Of a stretch of DNA of 42,376 nt, positions 30,665 through 41,594 are shown in pieces. A model generated the notes under the pieces. The model did not search any database. It was not told where the DNA came from and was given only the letters and a program-made list of their open reading frames with translations. This DNA comes from Rubrobacter taiwanensis (GTDB lineage Bacteria; Actinomycetota; Rubrobacteria; Rubrobacterales; Rubrobacteraceae), in NCBI RefSeq assembly GCF_004337705.1, contig NZ_SKBU01000037.1:1-42376 (forward strand). Reading direction: 5' to 3'. Position 1 is the first letter of the stretch, and each line of letters starts with the position of its first letter. The translations under genes and the position numbers were made by a program.

Positions 30665-31159
30665 CTACCCTTGCGGTGGCGGCACTATCTCCAGGCCGTA
30701 CCTGGGGGCGACCGCCAGGAGCTTCTCGACGTCCTCCGGGCCGGGCGGGGGCGGCGGGGCGGACGGGTCCGTCGCGGGCGTGGCTATCTCCTCGAACATC
30801 TTCTCCAGCCCCGCGGGGGTGACCATGATCAGGGCCCGGCTGGTCCTCGTCCCCACGTTCTTGAACCTGTGCAGGGTGCCCCTGGGGATGTACACGAAGG
30901 AGCCCGCGCCTCCCGGGAAGGTGTGCTCGCCCTCCAGGAACTCTATCTCCCCTTCCAGCACGTAGAAGCTCTCGTCCTCCCGGTGGTGGATGTGCGGCGG
31001 CGGTCCGGCCTGCGGAGGGATTACCGCCTCCCACAGCGCGAAGGCGCCGTTCGTCTCCTCGCCCGTGACCTTGAAGGCGTACAGGTCCCCCACCAGGTAC
31101 AGCAGGTTCCCCTCGCCCGGCGGGACGTACGTCACAGTCCTTTTCGCCACGTCCTCCAT
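30665..31159 (-). CDS. Cupin-domain protein
   Basis: 164 residues from ATG 31159 (GGAG 6 nt upstream); ATG 31165 is too close to the ribosome site. A single cupin barrel shows GPPPHIHHREDESFYVLEGEIEF with the metal-ligand set His/His/Glu, and GSFVYIPRGTLHRFKNVG with the last His. C-terminal Pro-rich linker then a short helix. Clearly paralogous to the cupin at 35424-35915 (shared HHREDE, YVLEGE, PATD, CEI/LEI endings). Such stand-alone cupins bind a metal and small ligand or act as dioxygenases/isomerases. The substrate is unknown. It is divergent from the XRE/NB-ARC regulator. Confidence 0.85.
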   Translation of the reverse strand: MEDVAKRTVTYVPPGEGNLLYLVGDLYAFKVTGEETNGAFALWEAVIPPQAGPPPHIHHREDESFYVLEGEIEFLEGEHTFPGGAGSFVYIPRGTLHRFKNVGTRTSRALIMVTPAGLEKMFEEIATPATDPSAPPPPPGPEDVEKLLAVAPRYGLEIVPPPQG

Positions 31160-31200
31160 GCTCATCTCCTTTCCTCAGGGGAGCCTTGCCTGTACCCGGA

Positions 31201-31302: not shown

Positions 31303-33612
31303 GTGATGCGTAATGGAGTCGTGTTCGGGCAGAGGGCCGAGCTGAGAGCGGTTGCCGACACTTCGTTCGGGGCGCGGCTGAGACGGTTGCGGGAAGTCGC
31401 GGGTCTGACGCAGGAGGAGCTGGCGGCGCGGGCGGGACTCAGCCCCAACGCCGTCGGCGCGCTGGAGCGCGGCGTGCGGAGACGGCCCTACCCGCACACC
31501 GTCCGGTCGCTCGCAGAAGCGCTGGAGCTGTCCGAGAGCGAACGGGCTGCCCTCCTCGCTTCCGTACCGAAGCGGGGTGCTGCCGCTGCTACCGCCGCAC
31601 CGGAGATCGTTGCGGAGTTCGCCGTTACGGTGCCTCACACCCCGCTCCTGGGCCGGGAACGGGAGCTGGAGGAGATCGAAGCCTTCCTGCGGAACCCGGG
31701 GGTGCGGCTGCTCACCCTTACCGGGACCGGCGGCGTGGGAAAGACGCGCCTCGCTATCCAGGCGGCGCGAGACACCGCGGGGCTCTTCCCCGACGGCGTG
31801 GCGTTTGTCGCCCTGGCATCGCTGGGGGATCCCTCCCTCGTCGTCCCGACCGTCGCGCGTTCGCTGGGTCTGAGGGAGGCAGGTGGCCAGAGCTTGGGCG
31901 AGGCCCTGCGCGCCCGCCTGCGAGGTAAGCGGCTGCTCCTGGTGCTCGACAACTTCGAGCACCTGCTGGAGGCGGCTCCCGAGGTCGCCGGGCTCATCGA
32001 AGACTGCCCCGATCTCGTCGTGCTGGCCACCAGCCGCGCTCCCCTGCGCGTCCGGGGCGAGCAGGAGTACCCGGTGGGCCCCCTGGCGCTGCCCGCCTCC
32101 ACCCGGTCGCCGGCCGCGGAGGAGGTCCTCGGCTCGCCCTCCGGGCGACTCTTCGCGGAACGCGCCCGGGCGGTCTCTCCGGCCTTCAGGCTTGAAAGGG
32201 GTAACGCCGCCGTGGTCGCGGCGATCTGCTGGCGACTGGCCGGGCTGCCGCTCGCCCTGGAGCTGGCGGCGGCGAGGGTGAGGTTCCTGGACCCCGCCAC
32301 GCTCCTCGCGCGCCTCGACCGGGCGTTGTCCGCGCCCTCCGGGGCGCGGGACCTTCCCGAGCGTCAGAGGACTATGTGGGCGACCCTCGACTGGAGCTAC
32401 GACCTCCTTCCGGAGGCGGAGAGGGCTCTGTTCCGGCGGCTGTCGGTGTTCGCCGGGGGCTTCTCGCTTGAGGCGGCGGAGGAGGTGGGCGCGTCGGGGA
32501 GCATCGCCGCCGAAGACGTGCTGGAGCTCCTCGGACGGCTGGTCGAGCAGTCGCTGGTCGCGGCGGAGCCCGCCGGGGAGGAAGGCGGGGTGCGCTACGG
32601 GATGCTGGAGCCGGTGCGACAGTACGCGCGGGAGAAGCTGGTGGAGAGCGGGGAGGCCGAAGATGCTCAACGGCGACACGCCGCCTACTTCTTGCGTCTG
32701 GCGGAGGAGGCGGAGCCGGCCCTGATCGGCCCGGAGGAAGAGGTCTGGATGGACAGGCTCCAGCGCGAGCACGACAACCTCCGAGCAGCCCTGCGGTGGG
32801 CGAAGGAGCGGGGCGAGGTCGAGGCCGGGCTCCGCCTCGTCGGGGCGCTGAACTGGTTCTGGTGGATGCGCGGGTATCTCGCCGAGGGGCGCGGCTGGAT
32901 CGAGGGCTTCCTGGAGGCCGCGCACGGCCTCCGAGCCACCGACGGCACGCGGGCCAGAGCCCTGCTCGGGGCGGGCAGGTTGGCTATCGCCCAGGGCGAC
33001 CTCGACAGGTCTTTCGCGTTCCTTGAGCAGAGCCTCGCGATGTATCGCAGGCTCGGGGACGAGGCCGGCATCGCCGGGCTCCTCGCCGAGCTTGGGCAGG
33101 CGGCGCGCGCCCGGGGCGATGATGAGCGGGCGGAGGCGCTGAGCGAAGAGGGCCTGCGCCTGAGCAGGGCCCTGCAGGACCGCAGGTCCGCCGCCATCTC
33201 GCTCATCACCCTGGGGAACATCGCCCGCCGCCGGGGCGACCTCGGACGGGCGGCGGATCTTTTCGAGGAGGCTCTCGCGCTCTTCAAGGAGCTGGGCCAC
33301 GGGCGGGGCCTGGCCTACTCCTTATGCAACCTCGGCGTCGTGGCGCTCGAACGCGGCGAGGCCGGACGCGCCCTGGAACTGCACCAGGAGAGCCTCGGAC
33401 TCTACGAGGCGCTCAAGGACAAGGCGGGACGGGCCTTCGCCCTGACGAATCTCGGAGATACGGCGCATGCTCTGGGAGAGGAGGACCGGGCCTTCTCCCT
33501 CTACGAGGAGAGCCTGGCCCTGCACCGTAAGCTGGGCAACAAGAGGGGCATCGAGCGCGCCCTCAAACGACTCGAACGGGGACGGCAGAGCGCGAAGCTC
33601 CGGGAGGCGTAG
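31303..33612 (+). CDS. XRE-HTH/NB-ARC/TPR (STAND) transcriptional regulator
   Basis: 769 residues from GTG 31303 (ATG 31306 also possible; no clear ribosome site). The N-terminal XRE helix-turn-helix covers about 20-75 (RLRRLREVAGLTQEELAARAGLSPNAVGALERG). A STAND ATPase follows, with P-loop GTGGVGKT at 141-148, Walker B LLLVLDNFEHLLEA, RNBS-like ATSRAPLRVRGEQEYPV and GLPLALELAAARV. From ~470 a WMDRLQREHDNLRAALRWA segment leads into TPR-like repeats to the C-terminus. STAND regulators switch by ATP and an inducer sensed by the repeats. Divergent from a cupin with palindromes between, so local control is likely. Confidence 0.88.
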   Translation: MMRNGVVFGQRAELRAVADTSFGARLRRLREVAGLTQEELAARAGLSPNAVGALERGVRRRPYPHTVRSLAEALELSESERAALLASVPKRGAAAATAAPEIVAEFAVTVPHTPLLGRERELEEIEAFLRNPGVRLLTLTGTGGVGKTRLAIQAARDTAGLFPDGVAFVALASLGDPSLVVPTVARSLGLREAGGQSLGEALRARLRGKRLLLVLDNFEHLLEAAPEVAGLIEDCPDLVVLATSRAPLRVRGEQEYPVGPLALPASTRSPAAEEVLGSPSGRLFAERARAVSPAFRLERGNAAVVAAICWRLAGLPLALELAAARVRFLDPATLLARLDRALSAPSGARDLPERQRTMWATLDWSYDLLPEAERALFRRLSVFAGGFSLEAAEEVGASGSIAAEDVLELLGRLVEQSLVAAEPAGEEGGVRYGMLEPVRQYAREKLVESGEAEDAQRRHAAYFLRLAEEAEPALIGPEEEVWMDRLQREHDNLRAALRWAKERGEVEAGLRLVGALNWFWWMRGYLAEGRGWIEGFLEAAHGLRATDGTRARALLGAGRLAIAQGDLDRSFAFLEQSLAMYRRLGDEAGIAGLLAELGQAARARGDDERAEALSEEGLRLSRALQDRRSAAISLITLGNIARRRGDLGRAADLFEEALALFKELGHGRGLAYSLCNLGVVALERGEAGRALELHQESLGLYEALKDKAGRAFALTNLGDTAHALGEEDRAFSLYEESLALHRKLGNKRGIERALKRLERGRQSAKLREA

Positions 33613-33645
33613 CCACCTGAAGAGGTTCCGGGCGTAGTTTTCCTC

Positions 33646-33834
33646 CCTATCCCGGCTGCGCTTTCTGGTACATCAGGGACCGCCCGAAAAGTCCGGATGG
33701 ATCCAAACCGAAGCCCTTGCGAACCGACGAAACGTGGCGAAGAGTTCCCATGCCCTTCCCGCTCATGACGGCGAGGCGGGAGTTCGAGAGGGTTTCGGCT
33801 ACGGCCTGGTTCTCTCTTCGCTGTAGCTAGACGA
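33646..33834 (-). pseudogene. Possible gene remnant or small protein
   Basis: In the 222-nt gap after the STAND regulator, one minus-strand frame is open from near the TAG at 33830 to a TAG at about 33646 and reads like real protein (NQAVAETLSNSRLAVMSGKG, then VRKGFGLDPSGLFGRS). A 39-residue ORF could start at an ATG near 33765, but without a convincing ribosome site. I do not recognise the family. It may be the decayed end of a gene displaced when the protoglobin segment arrived. Confidence 0.3.
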
Positions 33835-34410
33835 CTACCAGTCGCCGTCCTTCACATAAGGATGACTCCATAAGATCACAGACAGCATCAGAGCCTTGGT
33901 CCAGGCCTGGTGCATCTTGTCCACCTCTTCGTCACTATGGTCTTTCCGAGCCAGGAAGGGGCGGATGGCAGACATAGGATAGACGACGGCCCATAGGTAG
34001 CGGAAATGCACGATAGGCACAGAGTCCACATTGTCGGTCTGGTTCTTCTTGGTGCGATGGTGGCGCAGGCCGATCTCATGCTGGTAGTTGAGCCAGTCCT
34101 GGTCGTAGGTGCGGTTGCAGGTGTCGAAGATCCACTGAACGAAGCGTGGGTGAGCAGCCCCTAGGTACCGTTCGTCCGGCGTGCCATCGGGTCCTGCGAA
34201 GTAGGACATGAAGATGGGACCGAAGAGGCTCATCCAGTGCTCGAAGAGGGCGTCTGTCTGGTCGGAGAGGGCCTCCCCAACCATGCGCAGGTACTCGTGA
34301 TCCTCCTCGCTGAACTGGATGGTCTGCTTGAGCTTCTCAAGATCCTCAAGAGAAACAGGCGATCGGGCGACTTCTGCGGTGCCGTAGGTGTAACCTGGAA
34401 TATCTGCCAT
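33835..34410 (-). CDS. Protoglobin (single-domain haem globin of the globin-sensor lineage)
   Basis: 191 residues from ATG 34410; GGAGG is 13 nt upstream, a long spacing. The sequence IPGYTYG at the N-terminus, SPDGTP-like AGPDGTPDERYL, WIFDTCNRTYDQDWLNYQ and EIGLRHHRTKKNQTDNVDSVP match Methanosarcina acetivorans protoglobin closely; length is also the same (195). One of His117/His118 is the expected proximal haem ligand. Protoglobins bind O2, CO and NO; the physiological role is unsettled. No sensor output domain is attached. Base composition here and in both flanks is lower in GC than the neighbours, suggesting later acquisition. It is apparently transcribed alone. Confidence 0.93.
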   Translation of the reverse strand: MADIPGYTYGTAEVARSPVSLEDLEKLKQTIQFSEEDHEYLRMVGEALSDQTDALFEHWMSLFGPIFMSYFAGPDGTPDERYLGAAHPRFVQWIFDTCNRTYDQDWLNYQHEIGLRHHRTKKNQTDNVDSVPIVHFRYLWAVVYPMSAIRPFLARKDHSDEEVDKMHQAWTKALMLSVILWSHPYVKDGDW

Positions 34411-34744
34411 GGTGGTTGGTGTGCCTCCTTCCTCTCCCGCTTTCCCTTAGCGGTTAGCTCCTACACACCCGCATGTTGGCACACAGCGACGCCTGGCGCA
34501 TCTGTAGCAAGGTCTATTGCACTCAGCACTGTGGATCTGGAACGGGCTGTACTCCCCCAGCCTGACAAAAAGGCACAAGCCTTGCCGGGCTGCTCTCAGA
34601 GTGCGTCCAACTTGCCTAATATGGGGCCTTTTCGAGCAACGGTGCGTCAAACGGCCTGCAATGGTCTTTCCCTCATTTCTTCGACAACCTGTACCCAACG
34701 CTGTTGAGGTGGCTGCGAGGCATAGGCGAGAGGGGCTGGGAGTC
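34411..34744. other. 334-nt low-GC stretch without a clear gene
   Basis: No convincing gene. Base composition is noticeably lower in GC than the surroundings and codon bias is lost in all frames. A short plus-strand frame reads FPHFFDNLYPTLLRWLRG near 34675-34730 and could be a remnant of a coding end. The protoglobin ribosome site and presumably its promoter lie at the left end. I find no terminal inverted repeats that would define an insertion sequence. Confidence 0.4.
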
Positions 34745-35284
34745 CTACCGCTCGGAAGGCGGCGGTCCTTCGACCGTGAGACCGTGGCGCTCGGCGAGCA
34801 CGGGGATGGAACCCAGGTCCATCTCCAGCCCGTACCTGGCCATTATGGCGCCGAGCGCTCGCTCGTCGGGAGGCCCGTTGTGGGCGGGCGGGAGCAGCGG
34901 CGCCACCTCCGCGAAGTAGCGCTCGAAGCCTGCGGGGGAGATGATCTCCAGCGCCCGCGCCGGCCCGTCCCCCACGTTCCAGAAGGCGTGCGGCACGCCC
35001 CGGGGCTTGAAGACGAGGTCCCCGGGCCGGGCCACGCGGACCTCGTCGCCGACCTGGACGCCGATCTCTCCCTCCAGCACGTAGGTGTACTCGTCCTCGT
35101 ACCGGTGGGTGTGCACCGGCGCGGCAAGCGCCCGCGGCCCGATCGGGTGCTCTACCAGCGCGAAACTGCCGCCGCTCTCCTCCGCCCCGACCATGAACCG
35201 CACGCCGAGCCCGCCGATCACCACCTTCTCACCCTCGTTCGCCGCCAGCACGATACGCGCCCGCGAGTCTCCTTTTACGCCCAT
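34745..35284 (-). CDS. Cupin-domain protein, divergent member
   Basis: 179 residues from ATG 35284 with GGGAG 8 nt upstream; the frame extends 25 codons further upstream in non-typical sequence. The cupin core has APVHTHRYEDEYTYVLEGEIGV (His, His, Glu metal ligands) and GDLVFKPRGVPHAFWNVGDGPARALEIISPAGFERYF. It is related to but clearly more distant from the other two cupins here. The C-terminal segment ALGAIMARYGLEMDLGSIPVLAERHGL is common in small cupins annotated as quercetin-dioxygenase-like. Substrate unknown. It follows the cupin at 35424-35915 on the same strand with a ~139-nt gap. Confidence 0.83.
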   Translation of the reverse strand: MGVKGDSRARIVLAANEGEKVVIGGLGVRFMVGAEESGGSFALVEHPIGPRALAAPVHTHRYEDEYTYVLEGEIGVQVGDEVRVARPGDLVFKPRGVPHAFWNVGDGPARALEIISPAGFERYFAEVAPLLPPAHNGPPDERALGAIMARYGLEMDLGSIPVLAERHGLTVEGPPPSER

Positions 35285-35423: not shown

Positions 35424-35915
35424 TCACTCCCCGGGAGGCGGCGGTATCTCGCAGCCGTACTTCGCGGCGGTGGCCACGAGCCTCTCCACGTCCGGCGGGC
35501 CATCCTGGACCGGCGGGGAGGACCTGTCGGTGGCCGGCTCTCCGGCCTCGAAGAAGAACCTCTCGAAGCCGCCCGGCACGACCGTCACCAGGAACCTGGC
35601 GGGCGCCGCTCCCACGTTCTTGAAGGTGTGCATGGTCCCTTTGGGGACGTGGATGAAGGAGCCGGCCCCGGCCCCGACGGTGTTGCCGCCGACCAGGAAC
35701 TCCAGCTCGCCTTCGAGGACGTAGAAGGTCTCGTCCTCGCGGTGGTGGAGGTGCGGCGGCGGGCCACCTCCGGGAGGGGAGAGCGTCTCCCAGAGCGCGA
35801 AGGCTCCGCCGGTGTCCTCGCTCACCGCCTTGAACGTGTACAGGTCGCCCAGAAGCCACACCGATTCGCCCTCTCCGGGCGGGAGGTAGGTGGCGCTCCG
35901 ATTGCTCGTCTCCAC
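35424..35915 (-). CDS. Cupin-domain protein, paralogue of the one at 30665
   Basis: 163 residues from GTG 35915 with AAGGAG 7 nt upstream. Cupin motif 1 GPPPHLHHREDETFYVLEGELEF and motif 2 GSFIHVPKGTMHTFKNVG give the His/His/Glu/His metal site. It aligns end to end with the 164-residue cupin at 30665-31159, both ending in a Pro-rich tail. It is divergent from the LuxR-type regulator, with a perfect-arm palindrome in the shared upstream region, so the two are likely a regulator/target pair. Biochemical role unknown. Confidence 0.84.
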   Translation of the reverse strand: METSNRSATYLPPGEGESVWLLGDLYTFKAVSEDTGGAFALWETLSPPGGGPPPHLHHREDETFYVLEGELEFLVGGNTVGAGAGSFIHVPKGTMHTFKNVGAAPARFLVTVVPGGFERFFFEAGEPATDRSSPPVQDGPPDVERLVATAAKYGCEIPPPPGE

Positions 35916-41457: not shown

Positions 41458-41546
41458 GGAGGAGTGGCCGAGCGGCCGAAGGCGGCACCCTGCTAAGGTG
41501 TTATACCTCTAACGGGGTATCGAGGGTTCGAATCCCTCCTCCTCCG
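41458..41546 (+). tRNA. tRNA-Ser (anticodon GCU)
   Basis: The 89-nt cloverleaf has acceptor GGAGGAG/CTCCTCC with discriminator G, an anticodon loop CTGCTAA giving anticodon GCU (41492-41494), a long variable arm typical of class II serine tRNAs (TACCTCTAACGGGGTA) and T-arm GAGGGTTCGAATCCCTC. It reads AGC/AGU. CCA is not encoded. Confidence 0.96.
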
Positions 41547-41594
41547 CTCTCCCCGGCAAGAACGGAATTTAACCCGCTTTTAACCCAACCCCCT

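Follow-up and report, generated by a model that had tools for sequence, protein, structure and literature searches.

The assembly of Rubrobacter taiwanensis holds an intact protoglobin gene of divergent composition, whose product has a well-predicted fold and unusual haem-pocket residues, and also a broken, syntenic copy of the protoglobin usual in its bacterial family. Taking these together, we think it fairly probable that the intact gene encodes a working haem protoglobin that came from outside the family and now replaces the broken family copy. The transfer, the replacement of function and the ligand chemistry are what we infer here.

An intact protoglobin gene in a low-GC patch

The window, that is, the whole stretch of 42,376 bp that was analysed, is the entire contig C30 of a 3.04 Mb assembly with 57 contigs (99.69% complete, 0.4% contaminated). 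Its protoglobin gene (Table 1) encodes a single-domain protein of 191 residues, the family norm being about 195, and PF11563 (Protoglobin) was the sole Pfam match (E 1.3e-21; 77.7 bits against a cut-off of 25; profile positions 3–157 of 158). As no output domain is fused to it, a globin-coupled sensor was ruled out, and sensor globins were far weaker structural matches (TM 0.52–0.66 by query length). The codon-position GC (0.602/0.372/0.743) is of the coding type, and the 191 codons run without stop or frameshift. The earlier note had claimed a full-length resemblance to Methanosarcina protoglobin, and this was borne out by the M. acetivorans protein (MaPgb) in the PDB, which matched residues 3–191 with an E-value of 2e-72 and 59% identity. 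An AlphaFold model built from 33 aligned sequences (mean pLDDT 93.4) resembled the full-length MaPgb structures with TM 0.95–0.97 and rmsd 1.1–1.2 Å, as far as a predicted model can be compared, and its first helix begins at residue 21. The protein thus has in common with MaPgb (PDB 2veb and mutants) whole-length homology, the predicted fold and an N-terminal extension of about 20 residues. The Aeropyrum pernix protoglobin (ApPgb) has the same fold as the model (TM 0.88–0.91 by query length). By family, length, predicted fold and haem-ligand position, the protein is assigned to the protoglobins.

The patch at 33613–34744 has a GC content of 58.0% against 67.3% for the contig, and it is the contig's lowest-GC 1.1 kb: only 33 of 41,245 segments of 1132 bp were equally low, and all start at 33562–33626, so that they represent the patch itself. 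The gene has 57.2% GC and a GC3 of 0.743, and GC3 ranges from 0.848 to 0.928 in eight neighbouring genes. This GC and codon profile agrees with the earlier description of the gene and both flanks as GC-poor relative to the neighbourhood. The GC3 also lies far under that of the protoglobin remnant in the same genome (0.916) and below five of six intact family copies, the G010 copy being lower still. Other family members likewise have protoglobin genes that are GC-poorer than the DNA around them (in one case, 0.639 in a locus of 0.669), and part of the dip therefore stems from the protein.

The flanks had been described as decayed sequence without intact genes. The second part of that description stands, whereas decay found no backing, since no relative of the flanks was detected in the same genome (matches at E 0.019 or weaker, the globin remnant aside), in 60 related genomes for the longest flank fragment (best non-self E 0.06), in the collected protoglobin loci (best DNA E 0.17; best translated E 0.007, in the same contig as the window gene) or in plasmid DNA, where matches to the patch lay within the globin gene alone. 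An 83-aa frame of the upstream flank was without Pfam match, and we found no homology that would make the fragments remains of a MarR or transposase gene. The motif AGGAGG in the upstream flank ends 13 bases ahead of the start codon; a promoter-like match was not seen at the gene, which carries little weight as 0.4 were expected by chance.

We recognised no mark of a mobile element or genomic island at the patch. An integrase or transposase was not seen by eye among the window ORFs, ten of which were scanned with Pfam. Inverted or terminal repeats were absent at the patch, where a single 11-base direct repeat has one copy inside the gene. Rfam reported no RNA element in the patch, its sole match being the only tRNA of the window (41458–41547), and none lies at the patch edge.

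On the other side of the patch edge, the neighbouring cupin has an ortholog in G019, a genome of the same family, with 86% protein and 87.6% DNA identity, and the DNA match starts at window position 34745, exactly at the edge. G019 has no globin patch beside this cupin, and its protoglobin sits in a conserved block elsewhere (see below). The comparison of the locus in related genomes that the earlier note had proposed thus found, for G019, the cupin ortholog present and the patch absent. Near its cupin, G019 has more cupin and LuxR relatives, about 52% identical. In the window, three related Cupin_2 genes lie within 5.3 kb (30668–31165, 34745–35284 and 35427–35915), with LuxR and STAND-type regulators there too. 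That the globin stands beside regulators and cupins has little functional weight, as the STAND regulator is convergent and the G019 cupin is without protoglobin; a function of these neighbours with the globin was dropped on the latter ground. We take a STAND-type gene to follow the protoglobin in four Thermoflexus-type loci as well.

Table 1. Positions of the features discussed, in window coordinates unless a locus (L) or contig (C3) is named
Feature	Position	Strand	Basis
Protoglobin gene, intact, 191 aa	33835..34410	-	ATG start; ORF list, Pfam, PDB match, AlphaFold model
Downstream flank, low GC (59.9%), no recognised gene, no relatives found	33613..33834	.	
Upstream flank, low GC (58.1%), no recognised gene, no relatives found	34411..34744	.	
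HTH/NB-ARC/TPR (STAND-type) regulator, convergent with globin gene; not clearly part of its system	31303..33612	+	
Cupin gene adjoining patch edge	34745..35284	-	Pfam; DNA homology to G019
His117 codon, equivalent to the proximal haem ligand His120(F8) of MaPgb	34060..34062	-	Alignment, His in 123/123 rows
Trp59 (B9, kept) and Met60 (B10; Tyr61 in MaPgb) codons	34231..34236	-	Alignment
Codons 142–146: Val142 (Phe145 in MaPgb), Met146 (Ile149 in MaPgb), distal side	33973..33987	-	Alignment
Broken family protoglobin and broken Cys4-tailed MarR, adjacent, usual family block	L011:3199-3929 = C3:29698-30428		
Example Cys4-tailed MarR regulator by protoglobin	L033:4035-4652		
Example Cys4-tailed MarR regulator by protoglobin	L034:6072-6857		
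Example Cys4-tailed MarR regulator by protoglobin	L035:1837-2499		

An altered haem pocket

The pocket was compared in an alignment of 123 rows, a few of which duplicate one gene; the short fragments L065 and L100 and the C3 remnant were excluded. The window protein and MaPgb both have the proximal His, TrpB9 and PheE11, and these positions hardly vary, with Trp at B9 (Trp59) in all 123 rows and Phe at E11 (Phe90) in 122. At B10, 104 rows have Tyr, 17 have Arg and one has Thr, and the window protein alone has Met; TyrB10 is thus typical of the family without being a defining feature. The window protein is also the only one with Val in place of Phe145, and it shares Met at the Ile149 site with one other row. 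Relative to MaPgb, Met replaces Tyr61(B10) and Ile149, Val replaces Phe145 and Trp replaces Val143, and the protein is shorter by two residues after helix B and by one in the 150–154 region. The changes at B10 and Phe145 and the two-residue loss are unique to it among the 123 aligned proteins. The Chloroflexota copies, to which it is closest overall, have neither the loss of TyrB10 nor the shortening after helix B.

The 17 relatives with Arg at B10 come from Niastella/Longitalea, Acidobacteriota and Rhodanobacteraceae loci (for example, L088, L058 and L101). They are separate in a quick tree and form a possible second functional class.

According to PMC3680402, His120(F8) is the proximal haem ligand of MaPgb, TrpB9 and TyrB10 supply two hydrogen bonds to bound cyanide, and with Ala in place of TyrB10 the cyanide off-rate is about seven times higher (4.2e-4 against 5.8e-5 per s). 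When O2 is bound, TyrB10 makes its bond with helix E and not with the ligand, and the same text terms the biological role of MaPgb still unknown. Nitrite reduction and peroxynitrite isomerisation by MaPgb are described in PMC4020757. By analogy, the haem of the window protein would be held by His117 inside a buried globin pocket. Its most probable function is to bind NO, O2 or CO, or else to react with reactive nitrogen species; the two MaPgb reactions would be its likeliest use. Together, the distal changes are expected to cost one hydrogen bond to anionic ligands and to alter the shape of the pocket. From the TyrB10 data for MaPgb (PMC3680402), we anticipate that such ligands are held less tightly, and we make no firm prediction for O2.

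In PMC11739421, the protoglobins of Aeropyrum pernix and Pyrobaculum arsenaticum were engineered for carbene chemistry above the distal haem face, at positions including W59, Y60 and a Phe. By their numbering, W59 and Y60 are presumably the B9/B10 pair. The pocket changes in those proteins were made by hand, whereas the change in the window protein is natural.

A broken family copy and the origin of the intact gene

Searching the genome for protoglobins gave two matches in all, the window gene, which is thus the sole intact protoglobin found in this assembly, and a partial match at C3:29707–29985. The latter aligns solely with residues 103–195 of the G009 protoglobin, the first approximately 102 residues being missing, and it starts a few bases past the stop of a zinc-type dehydrogenase gene (PF00107, PF08240). 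The MarR gene beside it is also broken, with residues 21–119 and 178–227 in different frames and the middle missing. The remnant falls inside the family clade with support of 99/98 (one copy from another family, G290, lies within) and of 99/99 in a second tree.

Six other family genomes (G001, G008, G009, G010, G019 and G022) have a protoglobin, the same Pfam-type protein in its usual family form, 49–52% identical to the window protein. In all of them except G010, the protoglobin is followed by MarR, MOSC and Lar_N genes, as is the C3 remnant (the names MOSC and Lar_N come from Pfam matches of the copies in our genome, MarR from that in G009). In G008, G009 and G019, the protoglobin is preceded by this dehydrogenase and by a NAD_binding_4/HAD protein of 662 aa; in G001 and G022 the dehydrogenase ends about 4 kb away, with other frames in between. 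The block around the remnant is therefore common to the former three genomes, and its MarR-to-LarA part to the latter two. Thus, five of six family copies stand by the MarR–MOSC–LarA block, whereas the family copy in this genome is broken; both genes of the usual protoglobin–MarR pair being broken on C3, that pair is lost here. Near the G010 protoglobin (8 kb read, from the contig end) we found no block genes, and the G010 genome gave no MarR with the four-cysteine (Cys4) tail described below; a protoglobin out of place is thus not unique to this genome.

The closest of 88 confirmed relatives (80 kept; one genome per species) were from thermophilic Chloroflexota, namely a Caldilineae MAG (J102; 65% identity), an Anaerolineae MAG (S141_23; 63%) and Thermoflexus (62–63%), in a scan that favours look-alikes because its peptide patterns came from the window protein. 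In one alignment, identity was 65.4% to L026 (Caldilineae) and 63.3% to both L027 and L028, 58.5% to MaPgb, so that Methanosarcina is not the closest relative, 52.9 and 53.5% to copies of another family of the phylum (G042 and G056), and 48.4–51.6% to three own-family copies; L026, L027 and L028 exceeded the family copies in both protein halves. The motif AWT of the window protein is shared with L026 and the Thermoflexus copies and occurs in 9 of 123 rows, WSHPY in 7, and the Lysobacterales copy L084 has both. A best identity of 65–66% is too low to point to one donor. In the order of the Caldilineae genome, where 3 of 20 genomes have a protoglobin, the best copy still reached 66%, and a closer donor was not found there.

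Protoglobins were present in 9 of 60 related genomes and 14 of 396 genomes of the phylum sample (own genome included in both), and in 38 of 400 genomes of Chloroflexota, the phylum of the Thermoflexus genome G398. Copies from Rubrobacter xylanophilus, Chloroflexus, Thermobifida and Thermosynechococcus were already listed in 2006 (PMC1457004), and a protoglobin in the Rubrobacter group is thus unsurprising. The Bacteroidota loci L045, L063 and L064 carry tandem protoglobin pairs, the second copy being about 47% identical to the window protein. A viral origin was discarded, no relative being found among viral contigs or phages, as was a plasmid origin, since the protoglobins of seven plasmid records were all less than 60% identical and plasmid DNA matches were confined to the gene.

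In trees, the window protein fell outside the family clade, on a long branch (0.54–0.85 changes per site) among Chloroflexota and other copies. The AU test nevertheless keeps a clade of the window copy and the family (lnL 16.7 lower, p 0.184; 17.7 lower, p 0.070 in the second tree), and in the second tree it keeps groupings with L026 (p 0.31) and with L026 and L027 (p 0.196) as well. The phylogeny suggested in the earlier note therefore places the protein outside the family, but does not firmly exclude the family, and leaves its position unsettled.

Identity, composition, place and the broken home copy combined, more than the tree alone, make transfer the best-supported origin of the window gene; from these sequence data we consider it fairly probable, short of proof. 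The transfer that the earlier note had suggested is favoured by the Chloroflexota kinship, the composition, the C3 remnant and the empty site in G019, and weakened by the AU values and the long branch. Counting against it, too, the L027 and Thermoflexus copies have a Cys4-tailed MarR nearby, whereas the window copy and the examined flanks of L026 are without one, and no integrase, transposase or terminal repeat was recognised at the patch. The gene would have come into this lineage as a short segment lacking its neighbours, the likeliest source outside the bacterial family being a thermophilic Chloroflexota-like donor, and would now stand in for the family protoglobin that was broken together with its MarR partner on C3.

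The window copy could instead have arisen within the family, by an ancient duplication of its protoglobin followed by a change of place and rapid divergence, and would then only look foreign. Such a history would fit the AU test, which keeps it with the family, its flag as a long branch, and the occurrence of moved and second copies elsewhere, as in G010, outside the block, and in the Caldilineae genome G396, with two protoglobins. Fast evolution by itself, however, would not raise identity to an outside group, and the protein is nearer to three Chloroflexota copies than to three family copies over its whole length and in both halves; its GC3 is also under that of the remnant and of all intact family copies except G010. 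On this evidence we regard a paralogue as possible, though rather unlikely. That the gene is a transferred relic turning into a pseudogene, with pocket residues that reflect relaxed selection, seems improbable to us. It is true that 27 states of the window protein occur in at most two of the 122 other rows, that the flanks hold no recognised gene and the globin no operon partner, and that the promoter search, which says little, gave nothing. But the reading frame is unbroken, the fold is predicted with high confidence from 33 sequences, the haem His, Trp59, Phe90 and 42 of 45 strongly conserved sites are retained, and 13 of the 27 odd states cluster in 24 of 188 distal positions (odds ratio 12.7, with regions chosen post hoc). 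An unbroken frame and coding-type GC, combined with a long branch and only 3 of 45 strongly conserved sites changed, suggest that selection has kept the protein. Finally, the low GC, the flanks without relatives and the occurrence in a single genome could point to an assembly chimera or contamination, with a patch foreign to this genome. We judge this very improbable, as the patch lies inside a 42 kb contig, next to a cupin that is 87.6% identical in DNA to that of a family member, in an assembly with the completeness and low contamination given above.

A Cys4-tailed MarR regulator beside protoglobins

Around 125 protoglobin loci, the commonest neighbour was a MarR-type regulator. At 66 of them, from many phyla (64 of 122 when counted by distinct protoglobin sequence), this regulator carries the tail C-x2-C-x(11-17)-C-x15-C and lies within about 3 kb of the protoglobin, mostly on the same strand; absence at other loci is not proof, because flanks were 1.5 kb for part of them and shorter for others. 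In three to five of these proteins, Pfam matches were confined to MarR-like winged helices in the body, the tail matching no family, and NCBIfam matches for the proteins scanned were all under cut-offs. The predicted model of the L035 regulator has confidence values of 94–98 over residues 171–210, tail included, and its 50 best structure matches were MarR-kind regulators where named, with at most 153 of 220 columns aligned.

We then compared the occurrence of the tail in genomes with and without protoglobin. Among the relatives, it was found in 8 of 9 genomes with protoglobin and in none of 51 without (Fisher p 4e-9); one of the eight is the broken MarR of our own genome, and the exception is G010. 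The phylum sample gave 12 of 14 with and 7 of 382 without (p 2e-16), and Chloroflexota 25 of 38 with and 3 of 362 without (p 5e-27), shared ancestry being ignored in all three tests. For the latter two counts, scoring was limited to at most 17 candidates in each genome. Because the tail profile (A4) derives from tails beside protoglobins, tails in other settings may escape it; the protoglobin and tail counts were paired on the assumption that both searches covered the same genomes, and the genomes listed agree. The two genes lie several kb apart in G527 and G583 and on different contigs in G591. Within the literature searched, by titles and abstract openings, no description of the pair was found.

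Two other neighbours were seen. In Bacteroidota, a DUF2024 protein (PF09630) directly follows the protoglobin (L043:1164–1571 and L046:5583–6170); the domain was confirmed for these two proteins, and the cluster of related neighbours spans 19 loci. At seven loci without MarR (L085, L117, L118, L133, L135, L139 and L140, with L085 and L133 being the same gene), a gene lies divergently just upstream of the protoglobin, which we take from one sequence to be of LysR type.

Going by the MarR pairing, protoglobins may be under the control of a redox, metal or NO signal, and our guess is that the four cysteines of the tail form a metal or cluster site. It is conceivable, although we doubt it as a whole, that protoglobin and Cys4-tailed MarR, the tail being a likely metal or Fe-S, redox or NO switch, make up a two-gene module that is induced to respond to reactive nitrogen or oxygen species, and that in R. 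taiwanensis this module was lost and is succeeded by an unregulated foreign copy with a more open pocket and a changed ligand or reaction.

What is new here is the state of loss and replacement, the pocket and the neighbour pattern. The inherited protoglobin is broken along with its regulator, and a copy of different origin is intact elsewhere, which makes the genome a natural before-and-after case. The protein naturally combines Met at B10 with Val in place of Phe145, a pocket for which we came across no study, in a part of the protein that is a target of protoglobin engineering towards new chemistry. The pairing with the Cys4-tailed MarR, in turn, points to a regulator on which the inducing signal of protoglobins can be sought by direct tests.
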